A DNA stretch of 42,904 bases from Gammaproteobacteria bacterium (GTDB lineage: Bacteria > Pseudomonadota > Gammaproteobacteria > Ga0077536). The notes under the pieces were generated by a model. It was not told the origin of the DNA. It ran no database searches and saw nothing but the letters and a program-made list of their open reading frames with translations. Below, in pieces: positions 449-24,295 of this stretch. How positions within the stretch are numbered: the stretch's first letter is position 1; each line of letters opens with the position of its first letter. The stretch is taken from contig JADLEV010000023.1 in assembly GCA_020845935.1 (NCBI GenBank), forward strand, positions 1 through 42,904. The letters run 5' to 3'. A program made the translations under genes and the position numbers.

Positions 449-2244
<1,796 letters not shown>

Positions 2245-2248
2245 GAGG

Positions 2249-2767
2249 TCACGAGCACAGCAGCAAATTGATCGCCGCGGCCAGATCAGCCGGTGCGGGT
2301 CCGGCTTGTTCCAGAGCCGATCCCCCGCGCACGCCAGGCATGCTCTGCACGGTGATGCCGAGGGCACGTGCCGCATCGCGATCGGCGGCGCGGTTGGTAA
2401 TCAGCGCGACCTCCCCGGCACTCAACCGGGCGCGCTGCACGATCTGCTGGAGCAGTCCCTGCTCGCTGGAATCGCAGACGCAGGGTTGGCCGGCGTCGTG
2501 CGGGCAAAAGGCCAGCGCCTCGATGCGCCCGCCACGTTGCGTGATCGCCCGCAACATCCGTTGCTGGCCGTGGAGCAGCGCGTCGATATCGAACGCGCCG
2601 TCGCGGGATTGTGCGCGGTCGCCCAGCAGGACGCAGCGGACTCCGGCCAACGTCAATCGAGCGATCGCTTCGACCGCGCCGGGAATGGCCTCCCGGCCAC
2701 CGGACTCGCCGGCGACACCTCGTGGCGGTTCGATGAGGCCGCTGCTCCTGATGATGACCAGTTTCAT
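2249..2767 (-). CDS. Degenerate HAD-family protein in the gmhB position (likely catalytically inactive)
   Basis: A protein of 172 residues that aligns by eye with D-glycero-D-manno-heptose-1,7-bisphosphate 7-phosphatase (GmhB), usually encoded between glyS and plsC. The zinc-binding part is kept: C88-P-H90 and C96-V-C98. The catalytic DxDG motif is replaced by RSSG at 7-10, so both the nucleophile and the acid/base aspartate are gone. The RKP that normally follows the last zinc cysteine has become DSS, and the first Asp of the VGD motif is N125, with D129 kept. The reading frame is intact, with codon use like its neighbours and a good ribosome binding site (GGAGG, eight bases before the ATG). 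It therefore looks like a maintained pseudoenzyme rather than a decaying gene. A structural or regulatory role is inference. Confidence 0.75.
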   Translation of the reverse strand: MKLVIIRSSGLIEPPRGVAGESGGREAIPGAVEAIARLTLAGVRCVLLGDRAQSRDGAFDIDALLHGQQRMLRAITQRGGRIEALAFCPHDAGQPCVCDSSEQGLLQQIVQRARLSAGEVALITNRAADRDAARALGITVQSMPGVRGGSALEQAGPAPADLAAAINLLLCS

Positions 2768-2795
2768 CGAGCCGCCTCCGCCAGGTGAACGCCGA

Positions 2796-4904
2796 TCAAC
2801 TCGACAGATTGAGCCGCGAGATGTCGGCGATGCCGGTGAACAAATGACGCAGCCGCGCCACCAGCGCCAGGCGGTTGGCGCGTACCGCCGGGTCGTCGCA
2901 CCACACCAGCACGGCATCGAAGAACGCATCGACGCTGTCGCGCAGCGCGGCCAGGCGCAGCAACGCTGCGGCATAGTCGCCGGTCGCGAGCAGCGGCGCG
3001 ATTTCGCTGGCTGCGGTCGCGAGATCCCGCGTCAGCGCCTGCTCGGCGGGCAACGCCAGCAGCGCGGGATCCAGTTCGGCCGGCGGCGGGGTCTCGAGCT
3101 TGGCGAGAATGTTGGCGCTGCGCTTGTTGGCGGCGGCGAGGCTCGCGGCCTGTGGCAGCGCGCGAAATGCCGCGACCGCGCGCACCCGTCGATCGAAATC
3201 GAGCGGGCGTGCCGGCCGGCGCGCGCGTACCGCGTCAAACACGTCGAACGGCACCTCGCGATCGCTGTAATAGGCACGCAACCGATCCAGCAGGAAATCG
3301 TGGACGCGATCGATCAGCGTGCTACCGGCAATCGCACCGTCGCCGGCCATGGTGCCGGTCAACGCGCCGAGATTGCCGGCGGCGATCGTGATCAACTCGA
3401 CCAGATCGAGATCGAGCTCGCGTTCGATGCAGATCCGCAGCACGGCGAGCGCGTGACGGCGCAGTGCATACGGATCCTTGTCGCCGGTCGGTTCCTTGCC
3501 GATGGCGGTGATGCCGACCAGCGTGTCGAGCCGATCGGCGACGCCGATCGCCTGCGCGAACGGATTCGTCGGCAGGGCATCACCGGCAAACCGCGGCAGG
3601 TAGAACTCCTCGAGTGCGCGCGCGATCGCCGCCGCCTCGCCGGATGCGAGCGCATAGTGATGACCCATCACGCCTTGCAGCTCCGGAAACTCGCCCACCA
3701 TGCCGGTCACCAGGTCGCAGCGCGACAGCTGCGCCGCGCGGCGCACCGCCGCGAGGTCGAGATCGAGCGCACGGCCGATCGCCTCGGCCAGGATCAGCGT
3801 GCGCTCGGTCTTGTCGTGCAGCGAACCGAGCTGCTGCTCGAAGACGATGCCGGCCATGGCTGGCAAGCGCTCGGCGAGCGGAGTGCGGCGATCCTGCTCC
3901 CAGAAGAACTGGGCATCCTTCAGCCGCGGCTGAATGACGCGTTGATTGCCGGCGATGATGCGTTCGGGGTGCGGGCTGTCGATGTTGACGATGGTGATGA
4001 AGCGATCGAGCAACCGCCCGTCAGTGCCACGCAGCGGAAAGTAGCGCTGATGGTTCTGCATCGTCGCCAGCAGCACTTCCTCGGGCAGCGCCAGGAACTC
4101 GGGCGCGAAGGCTCCGGTGAGCGCGACGGGCCATTCGACCAGCGCGGTCACTTCATCGAGCAGATCCGGCGCGACCAGCGCGGTACCCTTGGCCGCCTTC
4201 GCCGCCTGCTCGATCGCCAGACGAATCATCTCGCGGCGCGCGGCGAAACCGGCTATGACCTTGCCTTGCTGGCGCAAGGTCGCGGCGTAATCTGCCGCGT
4301 GCGCCAGCATGATGGCCGCCGGCGCCAGAAAACGGTGGCCATAGGTGATGCGATCGGCGGCGACGCCGAGGATGTGCGCCGGCACGATCTGCTCGCCATG
4401 CAGCAACACCAGCCAATGTACCGGCCGCACGAACTCGGCATCGGAACTGCCCCAACGCATCCGTCGCGGCACCGGCAGTGCTTGCAGCGCGTCCACGATC
4501 AGCGCCGGCAGGATCTCCGTTGCCGCCGCACCCGGCTGCTTGATGACACAACTCAGCCAGCGGCCCTTCTCGGTGGTCGTGATCTGCAACTGCTCGAGCG
4601 TGACGCCGCAGGAACGCGCGAAGCCCAGCGTCGCCTGGGTCGGGGCGCCGGCCGCATCGTAAGCCGCCGCGAGCGCCGGGCCGCGGCGCTCGCTGACGCG
4701 ATCGGATTGCCGCAGCGCCAGGTCATGAATCAGCAAGGCCAGCCGTCGCGGCGACGCGAAGCTTTCGATGTCGCCAAAGGCCAAGGCGGCCCTGGTCAGG
4801 CGCTCGCGCACGCCTTCGACCAGCGCGGCGCCAAGGCCCGCCAGCGCCTTCGGCGGCAACTCCTCGGTGCCGAGTTCCAGCAGCAGCGGCGCGGCGGCGG
4901 TCAT
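2796..4904 (-). CDS. glyS: Glycine--tRNA ligase beta subunit
   Basis: Large subunit of the bacterial alpha2beta2 glycyl-tRNA synthetase, responsible for tRNA recognition. It has 702 residues, close to the usual 690-ish. The N-terminus [15 protein letters not shown] is the family hallmark. The HD-like region ([11 protein letters not shown]) and the C-terminal anticodon-binding part ([15 protein letters not shown]) are present. The ATG at 4904 overlaps the glyQ stop (ATGA), as expected for two subunits made in fixed ratio. A longer open frame to 4928 exists, but the overlap and the conserved N-terminus decide the start. It is followed by the HAD-like gene after 28 bases. Confidence 0.97.
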
Positions 4905-9519: not shown

Positions 9520-10179
9520 ATGTACACACGTTCTTTCGCGCGCGCGCGCGCTCGTTGCACCCACTCCCTTCGCCAACTGCGCTTCACCGTGCCGCTCGTC
9601 GCCTTGTGCGCGTGCAGCCCGCTCGCGACCAATGCCGCGACGCTGGTGCTGTTCGATTTCGAGGACGCGAACGACGCATTCGAACTGACTCCGGACTTTC
9701 TCGCCGCCGGCGTCGCTGCCGGCGCCTGGAGCGATATCGATGGCACGTTGACCGGCAGCCTTGGCGATCCCGGCCGCGCCCTCTCGTCCAAATCCTGGGC
9801 CGACGGCAACGCGCTGCGCTTCACGCTGCTGCCGCAACCCGGACAGGCACTGATGCTCGACGGCTTCAGTTTCGATGAACAGGCTTCTGGGACCGGTCCG
9901 AAGGGGTGGCAGTTGCGCATCGATGGGGTTCCGGTAGCGATCGGTGACACGGCTTCGGCCTTCGCGACGCATGCGGGCGTGTTCAGCGCCGAACCGCTTA
10001 CCGGAGCCATCGAGATCTCGCTGCTCGGCCTGGATGCCTCGGCAAACGCCGGCACCTGGCGCATCGACAACTTCGCGCTGACGGGTGCCGTGGCACCGGT
10101 GCCGACCCCCGGGGGCCTGGTGTTACTGCTGAGCGGCATCGCCGGCCTGGTCGGCCTACGGATCGGCGCTCCGGCATGA
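9520..10179 (+). CDS. PEP-CTERM sorting-domain protein
   Basis: An exported protein of 219 residues. The N-terminus has a basic region and a hydrophobic stretch ending LATNAA, a typical signal peptide. The middle (TLVLFDFEDANDAFEL and onward) is a beta-rich domain of unknown function. The C-terminus has the PEP-CTERM layout: PVPTPGG, a hydrophobic segment (LVLLLSGIAGLVGL) and a short tail with one arginine, the signal processed by the exosortase/EpsH system. The motif is VPTPG rather than VPEP, as in variant sorting tags. The ATG at 9520 has GGAGG nine bases upstream; an ATG six bases earlier is too close to it. No exosortase gene is in the window. Confidence 0.8.
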   Translation: MYTRSFARARARCTHSLRQLRFTVPLVALCACSPLATNAATLVLFDFEDANDAFELTPDFLAAGVAAGAWSDIDGTLTGSLGDPGRALSSKSWADGNALRFTLLPQPGQALMLDGFSFDEQASGTGPKGWQLRIDGVPVAIGDTASAFATHAGVFSAEPLTGAIEISLLGLDASANAGTWRIDNFALTGAVAPVPTPGGLVLLLSGIAGLVGLRIGAPA

Positions 10180-10185
10180 CGGCAC

Positions 10186-10220
10186 GGCGCCCGGTCCGGC
10201 TGTCGACCGGACCGGGCGCC
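10186..10220. terminator. 14-bp perfect hairpin between convergent genes
   Basis: Arms 10186-10199 and 10207-10220 are perfectly complementary over 14 bases, with a seven-base loop. It lies between the PEP-CTERM stop and the stop of the convergent helicase gene. On the plus side it is followed by a short CTTTC, not a long T-run. The position and stability argue for a bidirectional terminator, but the weak T-tract leaves room for doubt. Confidence 0.7.
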
Positions 10221-10229
10221 ACCCGCCTT

Positions 10230-13200
10230 TCAGGAATCGGCACACCGCCACGGCCACTCACGCCAATTCAGCAACAGCGGGAAATAGAGCCCGACCCGGA
10301 TCGGGCCGGCGTACATGGCGCTCAACAACGTCGCGTAGCGATCGAGCTGCGGCCGATAGCGCTCGCACTCGGAATCGATGAACGCCTCGATCGCGCCACC
10401 GGCGTGGGTGCTGGTCTTGTAGTCGATGATCCAGCAGGTCTCGTCGGCGGCGATGAAACTGCGATCGATGATCGCCTGGGACACCCGCCCGTCGATCAGT
10501 CCCGTCACGCGCTGCTCCGCGGCGGCCTGCCGATGCGTGCCGCTGAGAATCCAGCGGCCGCGCGGATCGGCCAGTGCGCCGGTGAGCGCCGCCAGCGCCT
10601 GGGCGATGGCCTCGTCGCCGGCGGCGCCGACCAGACCCAAGCGCTGCGCCTGTCGTACGAGCCCTGGCCGCAACGCCGCGATCCGATCCGGTGACCAGTG
10701 TTCGACGCCGTCGGCGGCGATGCGCCGCAGGCATTCGTGGACGATGGTGCCGACCTGACGCGCGGCGATGCCGGCCCAGGCGTATTCGACCGGCGTCGCG
10801 GCCAGCGGCAACTCCGGCGGAGCCGGCGTGCTGCGCGGCAGCGGCGAGGACCAGTCCGCGGGCAGCCGCAGCAGGCGCGGCGCTTCGGGCAGGGACGGTG
10901 TCGCGGACGCCGCCGGCTCGGCGGCGTACGCGAAAGCCTCGGCTACCGCGGGCCACAACACATCGAGCAGCGTTCCCGACGTTGGCTCGGCAGCCGCGGC
11001 GAGCGTGCCGAACAGATGCAACTCGCGCCGCGCTCGGGTCAGCGCGACATAGAGCAATCGGCGCAGTTCGAGCAGCTGTTCGAGTTGTTCCCGCCGCCGG
11101 ATCAGACTGGTCCAGCTGCGTTCCCCGTTCGTCTCTTCGCCCGGTTCCGGGATCGGCGCAAACAGCAGGCTGGTGTCATTGTCCGGCCAGACGATTTCGG
11201 TCCACTCGAGCAGCCGGCGCTCATCGCCCGACACGCGCCTTTCGATCGCCGGCACGATCACGACATCGAACTCCAGTCCCTTGGCCTTGTGGATCGTCAG
11301 CAGCGCCACGCCCGGCGCCTCGCTCGCGGCACCCTGCGCGCGCAGCCGCGCGATGCCTCGCTCCAGTTGCGCGCGGGTCGGGGTGCGATACTCGGCAACC
11401 AGGCTCGCCAGCAGATCGAAGAACTGCTCGGCTTCGCCGCCGGCCTGCTCGCTGCAAAGACAGGCCGGACCACCCAGTGCCAGCCAGGTCGTTTCGACCT
11501 GCTCATGCAACAGCCCCGCGCCGGACGATACGCCATCGAGCGCCGCGCGTACGCGCCGTACCCGCTGCCGACCCTCGGCGGACAGCCGCGCCTGCAGCGC
11601 CTCATCGGCGAGCAGATCGCGCACCACCGCCCTTGGCGGCGTTTGCTCGGCTTCGGTCAGGATCGCCAGATCCGCCAGCGTCAGACCGCACCAGGGCGCC
11701 CGCAACAACGCGAGCCAGGCAATGCGATCGGCCGGATGCGCGAGGGCACAGGCGAGGGTCGCGAGATCGCGCACGACCGCGCTGTGCGCCGGACCAGCGA
11801 CATCGCCCGCGCGCACCGCGATGCCACGCTCGCGCAGTTGCTGGGCGAGGCCGGTGACATGCGCGCGACTGCGCGCGAGCACGGCGATGTTCTGTTGCGG
11901 ATCCTGCGCCAGCCGTTGCGCGATGAGTGCCGCGATTTCGGCGCCGGCGTCGTCCTGTCGGCGTGCATGAACGAAGACCCCGGCCGCGCCCGTGGGCGCG
12001 ACCTCGGCGGTCACCGGGGTGTAGCCGACGGTGCGCACCTGCAAGGCATCGACCGGCGCATTGAGCCGTGGAAACTGCGCGTTGAGCCAGTCGATCAGCG
12101 CCGGCTGCGAGCGGAAGTTGCCGCTCAGCGCCAGCACCTGCAACGGCACGGTGCCGAAGCGGCCGAGCCGCACCACCTGCTCGAACAATTGCACATTGGC
12201 TTCACGAAAGCGGTAGATCGATTGCAGCGGATCGCCGACCAGAAACAGCGTGCGGCCGTCGCCCGGTTGCCAGCCGGCGGTCAGCCGCAACAGCAGTTCG
12301 TACTGGGTAATCGAGGTGTCCTGGAATTCATCGACCAGCAGATGCGCGATGCGGTGATCGAGCGCCAGCGACAGATCGGTCGGCCGCTCCGGCTCACCGA
12401 GCGCCCGCTCGGCGGCGAGCGCGACACGGGTGAAGTCCGACACGCCCTGTTCGACGAACACGACTTCGAGATAGGCCGCCGCGGCCTGCAACAGCCGCAG
12501 CAGCGATCCGGTCAGGGCGGCGTGGTGCGGGTCGAGCGACGGCTCCGGCAACCGGCGCAGTCCGGCGAGCGCCGCGGCGAGCCCCGGAACCGCGGCCAGC
12601 TCCGCCAGCAGAGCCAGCAGTTCCCCCTTGCGGACCTCGGCATCGGCCGCCTGTCGGCGCGGGGGGAAGCCGTTGTCGAGGGTCAGCCTTTGCCGCCATC
12701 CGCCAGCCGCGGTCAACAGCAGATCGGCGAGCGCGATCCAGTCGGGCAGGGCCTCCAGTGCCGCAGGCGGCAGCGTGTCGAGGTCGGCGAGACGCGTGCC
12801 CAGGCTGTCGGGCCTGTGGCGGGCCAGATTGGCGCCAGCGTACCGCACCAGCGGCAGCAGCCGCCCCACCAGCACCGCCGGGAACAGGTCACGGGCCCGG
12901 ACCAGTTCGAGCACGATCAGCCGCGTGACCGTTGCCGTCAGCGCCGCGCCGTCGGTGTCGCCCCGCAGCAGCCGCAGCCATTGATCGCGCCGCGACAGCA
13001 TTCCGGCCAGCAGCTTCTCGAAGCGGCGCTGATCATTGTCGAGATGGGTCAGCACGGCGGTGAGTGCATCGCGCCAGGGCAGATCCTGCTCCAGATCGGC
13101 CAGCAACTGACGCACGGCGTCGCGATACAGCGGCGCCGCGTCTTCGAGAATGACGCCCGGACCGCTCAAGCCGGACGTCAACGGCAAGGCCGCGGCGATG

Positions 13201-18601: not shown

Positions 18602-19360
18602 ATGCGGCTGACCCGTCTCTACGTCGAAGCGGAGCTTGCCCCCGGACTGACGCTGCAGCTGGATGCGCGTGCCGCGCACCATGCCGGCACGGTATTGCGG
18701 GTGCAGGTCGGCGCACCGCTGATGCTGTTCAATGGCCGCGGTGGTGAGTACGAGGCGATCGTCACGCAGGCGCATCGCGGCCTGGTGACGGTCGAGCTCG
18801 GCGCCTGCCATGCCGCCGAACGCGAATCGCCATTGCGAACGACGCTGGTGCAGGCCGTGTCGCGTGCCGAGCGCATGGATTTCACGATTCAGAAGGCCGT
18901 CGAGTTGGGCGTCACGGCCATCGTCACGGTGCTCAGCCGGCGCAGCGTGCCGCGGTTTGCCGGGGATCGTGCCGAGCGCAAGGTCGAGCATTGGCAGGCC
19001 ATCGCCATCGGTGCCGCGGAGCAAAGCGGCCGCACGCGGGTGCCCACGGTGACGCCGCCGCGACCGTTGCTTGATTGGCTGGAACAGCCGCCGCTCGCCG
19101 ACGGCATCATTCTCGCCGCGGGGGCACCCGTCGCGCTTGCCGATGGGCTGCCTGCGGCGAAGTCGGCGACGCTGGTGATCGGTCCCGAGGGGGGCTTCGA
19201 GGCCGGGGAACAGCACGCGCTGCTTGCCGCCGGCTGCCGCGCGATGGCGCTCGGCCCGCGCATCCTGCGCACTGAAACTGCGGCGCTGGTCGCGCTCGCG
19301 ATTCTGCAAAGCCGTTGCGGCGATCTCGCCGCGACCACCGGCCCGATCGAATCCTCATGA
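18602..19360 (+). CDS. rsmE: 16S rRNA (uracil1498-N3)-methyltransferase
   Basis: RsmE methylates N3 of U1498 in helix 44 of 16S rRNA, using S-adenosylmethionine, after 30S assembly. It is 252 residues, as usual. The N-terminal PUA-like part (RLYVEAEL, HHAGTVLRVQVG) is followed by a SPOUT domain with the trefoil-knot motifs KAVELGVTAI, VIGPEGGFEAGE and LGPRILRTETAALVAL. The start at 18602 fits the conserved N-terminus. It probably shares a transcript with rsd. Confidence 0.96.
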   Translation: MRLTRLYVEAELAPGLTLQLDARAAHHAGTVLRVQVGAPLMLFNGRGGEYEAIVTQAHRGLVTVELGACHAAERESPLRTTLVQAVSRAERMDFTIQKAVELGVTAIVTVLSRRSVPRFAGDRAERKVEHWQAIAIGAAEQSGRTRVPTVTPPRPLLDWLEQPPLADGIILAAGAPVALADGLPAAKSATLVIGPEGGFEAGEQHALLAAGCRAMALGPRILRTETAALVALAILQSRCGDLAATTGPIESS

Positions 19361-19427
19361 CCGAGGGCAGAGTGACGAGCGGCACGCCGTGCACCACGCA
19401 GACCCCGATTGGCAAAGAGATGCGACG

Positions 19428-19835
19428 ATGACTCCAGCGACCTACAACGACTATGTGGCGGCGTTCAACCGCCGCGATTACGACGCGATCTGTTCCTTCT
19501 TCGCGCCGGAAGTCGCGCTCCATTCGCTCGGCCACACGATCCGCCGACCGGACGGCATCCGCGCGTTCTACCGGTTCTTTCATCAGTATGTCGTCGAGAA
19601 CATCACCGTGACCGCGGCGGTCGGCGATGATCGCCACCTCTTCGCCGAAGGCGTGATGCGCCTGACCGGGTTGCAGGATTTGACGCAGGAGGTGTTGAGC
19701 GCACAGGGCTTTCCCCGCTTTACGCCGGTGCCGAAAGGGCTGTCGGTCGAGATCCCGCTGTTCCTGCATTACGACCTGAAGGACGGACTCGTCACGGAGA
19801 TCCGTTGCGCGGGCTACCTTCCTCCGGCACCGTGA
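19428..19835 (+). CDS. NTF2-like (SnoaL/ketosteroid isomerase-type) fold protein
   Basis: A small soluble protein of 135 residues with the cone-shaped NTF2-like fold: YVAAFNRRDYDAICSFFAPEV, then IRAFYRFFHQYV, then a strand-rich half ending LKDGLVTEIRCAGYL. Such proteins include isomerases, hydrolases and binding proteins, so no reaction can be named. An Asp/His pair expected for some enzymes is not clear. The ATG at 19428 was chosen by the domain start and a GAGA upstream. It is separated from the convergent selenoprotein gene by a 9-bp hairpin. Confidence 0.75.
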   Translation: MTPATYNDYVAAFNRRDYDAICSFFAPEVALHSLGHTIRRPDGIRAFYRFFHQYVVENITVTAAVGDDRHLFAEGVMRLTGLQDLTQEVLSAQGFPRFTPVPKGLSVEIPLFLHYDLKDGLVTEIRCAGYLPPAP

Positions 19836-19880: not shown

Positions 19881-21626
19881 CTACCGCCAATCATCGACCA
19901 GCACGCCGCGACCCAGGCGGAAATCGGTCGCGAACCACGTCGTCTGTACCGCGCCGCCGACGACGACGACCTGAATCGCGCCAGGATTGTTGAAGGGCTT
20001 GATCAACGCGTCGCCCGGCAGCTTGCGCCAGGTGGCATAGGGTTCGAGACCCTGCAGCGCCATCGCGATATTGGAGGTCGTAATGACGCCGTTGCCCCAG
20101 TAGGACGCGACCGTCTTGTCGACATTCTCCGACAGCCACTGGCTGAGTTGCTGCTTGGTCTTGAAGCCGTTGACGTCCTTCAGCAACTGCGCCACGGTCG
20201 GATCGACGAAGATGGTGGCACCGGAGCCGCTGCCCGACAGCGCCCGCATGTAATCGCGGATCAGCTGGTGCGCCGGATAGCTCGGCTGCACCTCACCGAG
20301 GCTCGAGATGTAGCTCCAGCCGGTGCCGGTGGTCACCACGCTGTCGGTCGGCTTGAAACCCATCTGCACGTGCAGCGGTTGCCAGCCTTCCGGCAACAGA
20401 TCCTCGTTCTCGGCTATGGTCAGGCTGTTGTATTGCAGGTTGTTGCCGAGGGACTCCCAGGCGGTGACGTTGTTGCGCATGTCACCTGCGGTCTTCGAGA
20501 TCAGCGTGAAGAAGCGGCCGATCACCGAGTTCGCCTCGTTGTATGGCCCCATCGCATTGGTACCGGCGTTCATGCCGAGCTCCTTCGCAATCGGACCATT
20601 GACGACGATCGTGTTCGCCATCGACGAGGTCGAGGTCGCGAACGGCGCGCGCGTCGAGAGTGCCAGCAGCAGCGGCATGTACTTCGGTTTAGCGCCCGCC
20701 ATCACCGCGTGGATCGCGACCTTCTCGACCGTCAGATCGCGCGCACCACCGGGAAAGGTCACGGTCCGGATCAATTCATCCGCTTTGTGACTGGTGCCGG
20801 TCAGCATCCTTTTGACGCGTTCTTCCGTCGGCAGAATGATCGGGTTGTAGTCGGTCCACTCGCGATCCTTGAAGAGTTGCTGCAGGTTCTCCTCGGTGTC
20901 GGCCGGCAGCAACCGTGGCTCAATCGATGCCATGTCACCGGCGGTCGTCACCACCCGCTCCTCGGCGGTCAGTGGCTTGGTCAACGCGATCTCGATCGCT
21001 TCCATCATCGGCTTGCCGGACAGCGGCTCCGGACCGCGGACATACGCCTTGTGCACCGCCTTCGGCTGGCCGGTGATTGGGAAGGGGACCGCGACATAGC
21101 GGACCGGCATGCCATTGGTGTACTTGAAGTCGTAACCGATGGCGTAGCTGACGATGTTGGAGCCCGACAGGGCGACGGTGGGGACTTTAAGCAACTCCAG
21201 GCTGCGGGCGTGTCGGCTCACGGCCGACGCACAGCCGTTTCATTGCGCAATGCCGACGATGGCGGCATCTCCCTTCTCGTCGATCTCCTTCCACAATGCC
21301 GGATCGTCGCTGAACATGTTGTCCTTGGTGCGGCGCAGCTCGGTCTTCACGCTCGGCATGTTCTCCTTGAACCAGGCCTGCATTTCCTCGAGCACGCTGT
21401 AGCCGCCTTCCGGCCCGCCCCATTGAATGTCGACCAGGTAGATGGTCTTGCCTTCCAGCGTATCGAGCCGCTCGCTGAGCGCTTGCCGCTTCGCGAGCTT
21501 GCTCGGCATGGCCGGGTTCATCACGGTAATCTTTGGTTCGGCGGTGATGCCGTCGGGTGCATACGCGGTGAACGCGGATGCCGCAAACGCGATCAGCAGC
21601 GCCGAGGATCGGTAGCTACGTTTCAT
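19881..21626 (-). CDS. Exported UGSC-family selenoprotein with in-frame TGA (Sec129)
   Basis: One frame of 582 codons interrupted only by TGA at 21240-21242, codon 129. Read as selenocysteine, the protein has 581 residues. Residues 1-23 are a signal peptide (MKRSYRSSALLIAFAASAFT). The first domain ends with DAAIVGIAQ-U-NGC, giving a UxxC redox motif (Sec129, Cys132) at the place where UGSC-type proteins carry U/C-G-S-C. It continues VPTVALSGSN and YTNGMPVRYV. The C-terminal half (AIHAVMAGAKPKYMPLLLA, then IVVNGPIAKELGMNAGTNAMG) matches the second part of longer family members as I remember them. The ATG at 21626 has GGAGGG five bases upstream. The role is unknown; a thiol/selenol redox activity in the periplasm is likely from the motif. 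Conventional gene calling would give two genes, the second falsely starting at a GTG (21221) inside the hairpin. A nonsense mutation is the alternative. Confidence 0.8.
21208..21232 (-). promoter_or_regulatory. Candidate bacterial SECIS element
   Basis: Directly 3' of the TGA, GUCGGC (21223-21228) pairs with GCCGAC (21212-21217) around the loop CGUGA. Below a single C/A mismatch, GUG pairs with CGC for three more pairs. The apical loop begins 17 bases after the UGA and has a G within its first two bases, with a GU inside. These agree with the known bacterial SECIS rules (loop 16-37 bases from UGA, G in the first two loop positions). SelB binding is inferred. Confidence 0.7.
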
Positions 21627-21828
21627 GTTGCCCTCCAGTTGACGAGTCGAATGCCGGCTGGGCACTCGCAGCCTGTCGGACCGGGCGCCAGCGGCGCCGC
21701 TTGGGCCTGCGATTCGCAGCCGGCACCAAGCTCGCGACGCTGGAACCGGCGCGGCGAGCTGCCGGGCACCAGGGGCCCTTATGCTACGCTACCTCTGGAC
21801 TTTGCGGTTACGACCTCACGAACGCCCG

Positions 21829-22701
21829 ATGGCGAAGCAGGCACATCATTATTTCTGGCTGTCGACTGCGGCTGCTCTCGCCACCATCACGCTGAAGATG
21901 CTGGCCTGGCGCCTGACCGGGTCGATCAGTCTTGCCTCGGATGCGATGGAGTCGCTGGTCAATCTCGCGGCGGCCCTGTTTGCGCTGTGGATGATCCTCG
22001 TCGCCAAGGTCCCACCCGACGACGACCACCCGCTCGGGCACAGCAAGGCCGAGTATTTCTCGAGCGGCTTCGAAGGGGTCCTGATCCTGCTGGCGGCCTG
22101 CGCGATCCTGTGGGCCGCGGTTGGCCGCCTGTTGGCACCGGCGCCGCTCACCGCGCTGGATTTGGGACTCGCGCTTTCGGTCGTGAGCAGCGGCATCAAT
22201 CTAATGGTCGCTCTCATCATGCGCCGCGCCGCGGTCCGCTACCGATCGATCGCGATCGAAGCCGGTTCGAAGCATCTGCTGACCGATGTCTGGACTTCGG
22301 CCGGCGTCATCGTCGGCGTCGCACTGGTGCAGTTCACCGGCTGGCTGTGGCTTGATCCAGCGGTCGCGATCCTGGTCGCCTGCCACATCCTGCGCGACGG
22401 CGTGAATCTCGTGCGGGCGAGCGTGCTTGGCCTGATGGATGCCGCACTGAGTCCAACCGATCTGCAGGTGGTGCAGGCGGTGCTCGATCGGCTGGGCAGC
22501 GACGAGGTCTCGTTTGCCAATCTGCGCACGCGCCGCGCCGGTTACCGCAACTTCGTCTATGTCGACGTGCTCGTACCCGGAGACTGGTCCGTCCGCCGTA
22601 CCCACGTTCTGCTCGATCGGATCGAAGCGGAAATCACCGCGGGATTGCCGGACACCATCGTCATGACCCACGCCGAACCCGCCCCGGGCACTTGGCAATG
22701 A
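21829..22701 (+). CDS. Cation diffusion facilitator family transporter
   Basis: A metal-ion/proton antiporter of the inner membrane, about 290 residues, with six predicted membrane helices and a cytosolic C-terminal domain. Family features: SISLASDAMESLVNLAAA in helix 2, DDDHPLGHSKAEYFSSGFEG after helix 2, and SKHLLTDVWTSAGVIVGV in helix 5 with the HxxxD metal pair. The helix 2 site reads ESLVN where FieF/YiiP has DSLVD, so metal choice cannot be transferred from YiiP. The ATG at 21829 starts the conserved part. An ATG at 21781 is in frame, but TATGCT there may be a -10 box. It is divergent from the selenoprotein gene. Confidence 0.9.
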   Translation: MAKQAHHYFWLSTAAALATITLKMLAWRLTGSISLASDAMESLVNLAAALFALWMILVAKVPPDDDHPLGHSKAEYFSSGFEGVLILLAACAILWAAVGRLLAPAPLTALDLGLALSVVSSGINLMVALIMRRAAVRYRSIAIEAGSKHLLTDVWTSAGVIVGVALVQFTGWLWLDPAVAILVACHILRDGVNLVRASVLGLMDAALSPTDLQVVQAVLDRLGSDEVSFANLRTRRAGYRNFVYVDVLVPGDWSVRRTHVLLDRIEAEITAGLPDTIVMTHAEPAPGTWQ

Positions 22702-23983: not shown

Positions 23984-24295
23984 TTGTCCTCGCTTCCCCC
24001 GTCGCCCTCGCCGCGATTGCCCGAGGCCGACAGGCTGGCAGCCGGGACGATTCATGTGGTGGTGGCGGTGGCCACCTCGACGGCCTTCACGAACGGCATG
24101 CCCGGCTTACGCATCGTGTTTGCGCCGCATCCCGTCACCGGGTGCACCACCGCGGAATCCACCGCGTATCTCCAGGGCAACGATCCGGTCAGCGGCGATC
24201 CGATGCTGGCGGGGGTCCTCACCGGGTTGACGGGCAAACTGGCCAGGCAGGACAGACAGTCCGGCATCCTCGGGTGCGGGGAATGGCGACGATGA
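23984..24295 (+). pseudogene. Fragment of a second UGSC-family gene
   Basis: The frame contains VVVAVATSTAFTNGMP, then RIVFAPHPVTGCTTAES and LQGNDPVSGDPM. This matches by eye the stretch after the Sec motif in the protein encoded at 19881-21626 (YTNGMPVRYVAVPFPITG, then VRGPEPLSGKPMMEAI). The N-terminal domain with the U/CxxC motif and the whole C-terminal half are missing, and the first 20 residues look unrelated. About 50 residues align, so I read it as the remnant of a paralogue. A small functional protein is possible but unlikely. Confidence 0.5.

Follow-up and report, generated by a model that had tools for sequence, protein, structure and literature searches.

UGSC-containing selenoproteins (PF24696; NCBIfam NF041046; for example ABI76733.1) have in common a family domain and a UxxC motif whose first position is either selenocysteine (Sec) or cysteine. 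The family was described in 2008 from ocean metagenomes, in the Global Ocean Sampling selenoproteome, together with a fusion of a UGSC selenoprotein to an uncharacterised conserved domain (UGSC/Unknown_1); a thioredoxin-like fold was suggested and no function was assigned (PMC2398784). A survey from 2016 that covered about 5200 bacteria gives the figures 26 and 33 for UGSC, which we read as organisms and genes, or about one gene per organism (PMC5029168). According to a 2026 review the function of UGSC is still unknown, and the largest bacterial sets comprise 57 and 63 selenoproteins (PMC13188914). We found no description in the open-licence literature of a single genome with many UGSC copies.

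The UxxC motif is shared with other selenoproteins. It is the common redox motif of the thioredoxin-fold selenoproteins (Trx-like, Prx-like), and some UGSC copies lie beside the gene of a thioredoxin-reductase-like flavoprotein. PrdB and GrdB (GRDB, PF07355) are likewise selenoproteins with UxxC in an alpha/beta domain and could serve as a model for attack by Sec on a substrate. No sequence relation to GrdB and PrdB was detected, with hhalign against one GrdB-family protein giving a probability of 2% at an unrelated place and no PF07355 match among the paralogues described below.

The gene analysed here lies on the minus strand of a 42,904-nucleotide stretch of bacterial DNA, referred to below as the window, and has both the UxxC motif and the family domain. 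NF041046 describes a standalone protein of 147 positions, whereas the window gene also encodes a signal sequence and a further domain and has N-G in place of G-S. By description its architecture is the same as that of the UGSC/Unknown_1 fusion (PMC2398784). A single gene of this kind is ordinary for the UGSC family, which is already known; the apparent novelty is that one genome has so many paralogues and that these are split into exported and cytosolic copies, some of the latter beside a thioredoxin-reductase-like gene. With sets of at least 13 copies, UGSC ranks among the selenoprotein families that have multiplied most within one bacterium, and such sets point to selenium-dependent chemistry largely outside the cytoplasm.

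The window gene and its in-frame UGA codon

Translation of positions 21626-19881 on the minus strand gives 581 sense codons in one frame with a single internal TGA, at codon 129, and a cysteine at codon 132 (Table 1), just as the preliminary description had proposed when it joined two same-phase frames across one TGA. A standard ORF call reproduces the break that was anticipated there for automatic annotation, splitting the gene into a piece from 21665 to 21240 (GTG start, 141 residues; 128 residues from the ATG) and a second, GTG-started piece from 21221 to 19881 (446 residues). Since standard gene callers cut every such gene at the UGA, the whole set goes unseen in annotated genomes. The codons that follow the UGA give Asn-Gly-Cys (U129-N-G-C132). 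UNGC had been put forward as a distinguishing mark of this protein, a suggestion that has to be dropped, as the middle two residues vary freely among the copies (NG, HG, ST, SS, SI, SL, GS, GV, DG, PG and others) and only UxxC is fixed. The proposal of Sec at position 129 is itself strongly backed by the paralogues, by the homologues, by a single exchange of Sec for Cys and by the Sec machinery of other carriers, all of which are presented below, and we are highly confident that the gene encodes a selenoprotein in which UGA129 would be read as Sec.

Table 1. Positions of the window gene, its parts and its surroundings
Feature	Position	Strand	Basis or remark
Selenoprotein gene	19881..21626	-	UGA129 read as Sec (predicted); TAG stop 19883-19881; full-length homology to paralogues and to loci in other phyla
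UGA codon 129 (putative Sec)	21240..21242	-	column is TGA in 13/13 paralogues and 83/101 aligned homologues
Cys132, UxxC partner of Sec129	21231..21233	-	Cys in 13/13 paralogues and in 101/101 homologues whose residue 129 is U, C or L
Ribosome-binding motif GGAGGG	21631..21636	-	sequence; upstream of ATG 21626
Predicted bacterial SECIS stem-loop GUCGGC-CGUGA-GCCGAC	21212..21228	-	15-31 nt from U of UGA; GU in apical loop
Putative N-terminal signal sequence, about residues 1-30 (MKRSYRSSALLIAFAASAFTAYAPDGITAE)	21537..21626	-	sequence; hydropathy screen over homologues
UGSC domain, residues 35-194	21045..21524	-	PF24696 E=2.1e-12; predicted Rossmann/flavodoxin-like alpha/beta, Sec129 at start of helix 130-145
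C-terminal domain, residues 235-581	19884..20924	-	AlphaFold2 model; probably Unknown_1 of PMC2398784
SnoaL-like gene	19224-19835	+	flanks window gene
Cation efflux gene	21781-22701	+	flanks window gene
Decayed paralogue fragment, without Sec site	24041..24259	+	aligns to residues 154-225; closest to the copy on contig C38

The proposed membership of the UGSC family stands, with residues 35-194 scoring 47.9 bits against PF24696 where the Pfam cut-off is 25. The active site of this family is UxxC or CxxC; here it is U129-N-G-C132, and U or C at 129 and C at 132 are invariant in the paralogue alignment. On profile scores the window protein is related to the NF041046 equivalog (UGSC_fam) and yet lies outside it, at 33.8 bits (E=2.9e-8) against an equivalog cut-off of 125 bits. 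The UGSC domain makes up only the first third of the protein. It is followed by a second domain of about 345 residues, for which no Pfam family match was found (residues 235-581). This C-terminal domain is likely to be Unknown_1 of PMC2398784, the two having been compared by description only.

The AlphaFold2 model of the protein has a mean pLDDT of 81 and places Sec129 at the junction between a strand and helix 130-145; that of the C-terminal domain has a mean pLDDT of 94.9 and a pTM of 0.93. In the model the fold of the UGSC domain looks Rossmann/flavodoxin-like, as do the Foldseek matches, which are of weak significance, whereas a thioredoxin-like fold was suggested in PMC2398784. A sequence search of solved structures gave no significant match for either the whole protein or the C-terminal domain. 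Two sets of Foldseek candidates were set aside as unusable: a lumazine synthase or periplasmic-binding-protein-like fold for the N-terminal half, matched in part only (best E 2.6e-3), with the first-ranked alignment covering 300 columns at 14 Å rmsd, and a fumarate hydratase or Toblerone-fold hydrolase for the C-terminal domain, matched weakly (E 3e-3, TM about 0.2).

The C-terminal domain also occurs as a separate protein adjoining a standalone UGSC gene, at locus L013 of a genome of the same family as that of the window (G012). There a gene at 1108-3095 encodes a thioredoxin-like N-terminus (CPTC) fused to the C-terminal domain, and its end is overlapped by a separate short UGSC gene with an in-frame UGA of its own (UGSC); this arrangement is a split form of the UGSC fusion. 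Fusions of a thioredoxin-like (CPTC) part to the C-terminal domain similar to that of L013 were also seen in same-family genomes at L014, L016, L020, L023, L026 and L031.

The stem-loop predicted just downstream of the UGA can be extended by outer pairs to about 21236-21200. Its distance from the UGA and the GU in its loop are as expected of a bacterial SECIS, such as the E. coli fdhF element. Taken alone, the hairpin of the window gene is not stronger than in synonymous shuffles of the same peptide (z about 0). When the folding of nucleotides 12-42 was compared with synonymous shuffles over all TGA copies (n=96), the mean z was -0.91 with 86% of the values below zero, as opposed to a mean z of +0.37 for the Cys copies under the same control (n=16); the Mann-Whitney p of 1.3e-6 for this difference is optimistic because the copies are related. 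As a group the TGA copies have a post-UGA hairpin that exceeds what codon choice explains, and the Cys copies do not. Simple column-wise covariation of the hairpin over the 13 paralogues was not above controls, a comparison blunted by hairpins that are shifted by one base and differ in loop length.

Paralogues in the window genome and homologues elsewhere

The assembly that contains the window (2.16 Mb in 94 contigs, 62.5% complete, reported contamination 0.9%) was searched with the full-length protein, which identified 15 places. When TGA is translated as a residue, thirteen are UGSC genes, either complete or cut by a contig end. The remaining two are the other end of the copy on contig C38, found on contig C28 and overlapping it in sequence, and a decayed fragment, which is separated by 2.4 kb from the intact gene and has the opposite orientation. 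PF24696 matches all 13 paralogues. An in-frame TGA occurs once and only once in each of them, always in one and the same column of the alignment, and the third codon after it always encodes Cys; the motifs are UNGC, UHGC, USTC, USSC, USIC, USLC, UGSC and UGVC. With one TGA per gene at one column in 13 paralogues, and Cys three codons on, TGA129 is not there by chance.

This regularity argues against a nonsense mutation at codon 129 that would make the window gene a pseudogene. The decayed fragment nearby means that copies do get lost here, and the assembly search for selA, selB and selC found none of them; a pseudogene is nevertheless highly improbable, as the frame is open and conserved on both sides of the TGA, and TGA is found at this site across seven phyla with Cys as the only substantial alternative. 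A frame that stays open whatever residue the UGA gives would also be seen if UGA were generally a sense codon (such as the Trp codon that it is in code 4) or were read through without Sec. That reading can practically be dismissed: the single internal TGA of each paralogue falls at UxxC, and the alternative found at the site is Cys, not Trp. TGA also serves as the normal stop of several paralogues (among them those on C12, C49 and C94) and is therefore no general sense codon in this genome.

The copies of the window genome are scattered over the tree, 12 of them being placeable and requiring 11 changes, at least 8 of which are forced by well-supported branches; the paralogues are therefore old subfamilies and not the product of a recent burst. 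The tree is a quick one in which the longest branches (two C74 copies and one C41 copy) are placed unsurely. No other genome among 398 sampled from the window's phylum gave a match at E<=1e-40, and the nearest homologues are found in other lineages, a pattern that would fit a set assembled artificially by mixed binning. We judge such a binning error unlikely, since the paralogues occupy at least 10 contigs of 63-67% G+C whose tetranucleotide composition correlates at 0.96-0.99 with that of the window and of the contig that carries selD (other carriers are lower), since the reported contamination is 0.9% and since similar sets are present in other genomes; even a mixed bin would leave the reading of UGA129 as Sec untouched. 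The set may have been acquired by transfer from a different lineage. More distant relatives are present in same-family genomes.

A genome collection was scanned with nine closer copies as the query, the first family alignment having been too diverse, and this brought up 550 or more related stretches. Analysis was confined to the best 80 loci, and the ratios that follow describe the nearer relatives. By the names in their records, the loci come from Acidobacteriota, Pseudomonadota, Myxococcota, Chloroflexota, Rokuibacteriota, Bacillota and Actinomycetota. Actinomadura chibensis, Ramlibacter aurantiacus and Pararhodobacter are among the carriers of relatives. Among 101 homologues aligned from the best 80 of at least 550 loci, 83 have TGA at position 129, 16 have a Cys codon there and 2 a Leu codon, and Cys132 is kept in all 101. 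The in-frame UGA of the window gene falls at a site where relatives have Sec or Cys. The tree, built from 113 sequences, places all Cys copies in a single group that lies within the Sec copies, with one change of state, and Sec is thus the older, normal state. One homologue shares 70% identity with the window protein; its genome, G037, is one of the carriers from other lineages and has both SelB and tRNA-Sec. The number of places per carrier genome ranges from 1 to 30 over 22 genomes, with 30 in an Acidobacteriota bin (G040) and 21, 20, 18, 17, 17 and 16 in others; these are upper figures, as they include fragments and some copies without TGA.

In the two Leu copies (L091 5631-7397 and L096 6001-7764) Sec is replaced by Leu (CTG and TTA, respectively) and Cys132 is kept, and each lies beside a divergent second copy in which no residue is aligned at the site; the Leu copies have possibly lost Sec chemistry. 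A UGA-containing UGSC fusion gene was also found in a record titled as a Klebsiella pneumoniae MAG (L128), where it groups with Alphaproteobacteria-type copies, and that name is probably wrong.

Selenocysteine machinery

The preliminary description had proposed a search for selA, selB, selC and selD in the same genome. The window genome has a stand-alone selD of the Cys type (435 bits, HGAGCGCK motif), and selA, selB and selC (tRNA-Sec) were not found in the 2.16 Mb assembly, which is 62.5% complete; a gap in the assembly could account for the missing three. Nor was selU/MnmH found in it, which would have been a possible explanation of a lone selD.

The same result would be obtained if the genes were genuine selenoprotein genes whose Sec machinery has since been lost, leaving truncated products today, and one genome of the same family (G008) is also without selA and SelB. 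We regard such a loss as very unlikely. Because selA, selB and selC are clustered in genomes of the same family, one gap in an incomplete assembly would remove all three (about 0.37, an estimate from completeness alone); selD is intact with selU not found; and the twelve other paralogues keep conserved frames beyond the TGA, where decay would be expected under loss of Sec. A functional Sec site is further consistent with the carriers at large. Among genomes of the same family, SelB exceeds the cut-off in 16 of 18 and a strong tRNA-Sec match is present in 17 of 18, with selA and tRNA-Sec close to SelB where examined; the corresponding figures for carriers of the fusion gene in other lineages are 17 of 18 for SelB and 16 of 18 for tRNA-Sec.

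Genes encoding the C-terminal domain were observed close to selA and selB, at a distance of a few kb or less, in three same-family genomes (G005 C17 at about 488-491 kb, G009 C161 at about 7-13 kb and G016 C47 at about 429-435 kb).

Probable export, possible mechanism and neighbouring genes

The window protein and most of its 13 paralogues begin with a typical N-terminal signal sequence and are apparently exported, which supports the periplasmic location first suggested for the Sec residue; signal sequences were called by a hydropathy rule and not by a trained predictor. If so, the following course of events can be proposed. SelB and Sec-tRNA(Sec) would recognise the hairpin just past UGA129, so that selenocysteine is inserted and translation does not stop. 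The UGSC domain, Rossmann/flavodoxin-like in the model, would hold Sec129 at the start of a helix and next to Cys132, binding of the substrate would fall to the conserved C-terminal domain, and the signal sequence would put this copy outside the cytoplasm. Sec129 would then act as the nucleophile that attacks or reduces the substrate, to be resolved by Cys132 via a selenenyl-sulfide; we give this redox mechanism roughly even chances. Export, redox cycle, domain roles and the variety of substrates are inferred. The presence of 13 old, diverged and mostly exported paralogues suggests that the copies differ in substrate. The wider picture, in which UGSC fusions are selenoenzymes of two domains that make up a large and for the most part exported family, numbering 13 in the window genome and perhaps over 20 in some Acidobacteriota of soil and sediment, each copy specialised for its own substrate, and with separate electron supplies for cytosolic and exported members, is tentative and somewhat doubtful as a whole.

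No convincing operon partners were found for the window gene, both flanking genes being in the opposite direction. Among 76 same-direction genes next to UGSC genes, the commonest kind is that of a thioredoxin-reductase-like flavoprotein (16). By the hydropathy rule, such a gene adjoins 15 of the 72 copies that lack a signal sequence and none of the 43 that have one (Fisher p=0.0009). In the window genome this pair is found on contig C41 (L056), with the thioredoxin-reductase-like gene at 9575-10501 and the UGSC copy at 10501-12132. The distribution suggests that cytosolic copies receive NAD(P)H electrons and that exported ones, the window protein included, use a different donor. PQQ-type dehydrogenases adjoin some of the exported copies.

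Many exported copies (L102, L104, L111, L119, L123, L156 and others) start with MNRRK(M/L/I)LSLLG, which contains a twin arginine. Export of these copies may proceed by the Tat pathway, in which case the selenoprotein would leave in folded form. Directly 3' of some exported copies we also observed a gene for an exported-looking protein of about 200 residues (L056 4037-4708 on the minus strand; L088 7637-8218, L099 2499-3071 and L101 7676-8341 on the plus strand), which has a weak match to DUF4352 and is a possible partner.
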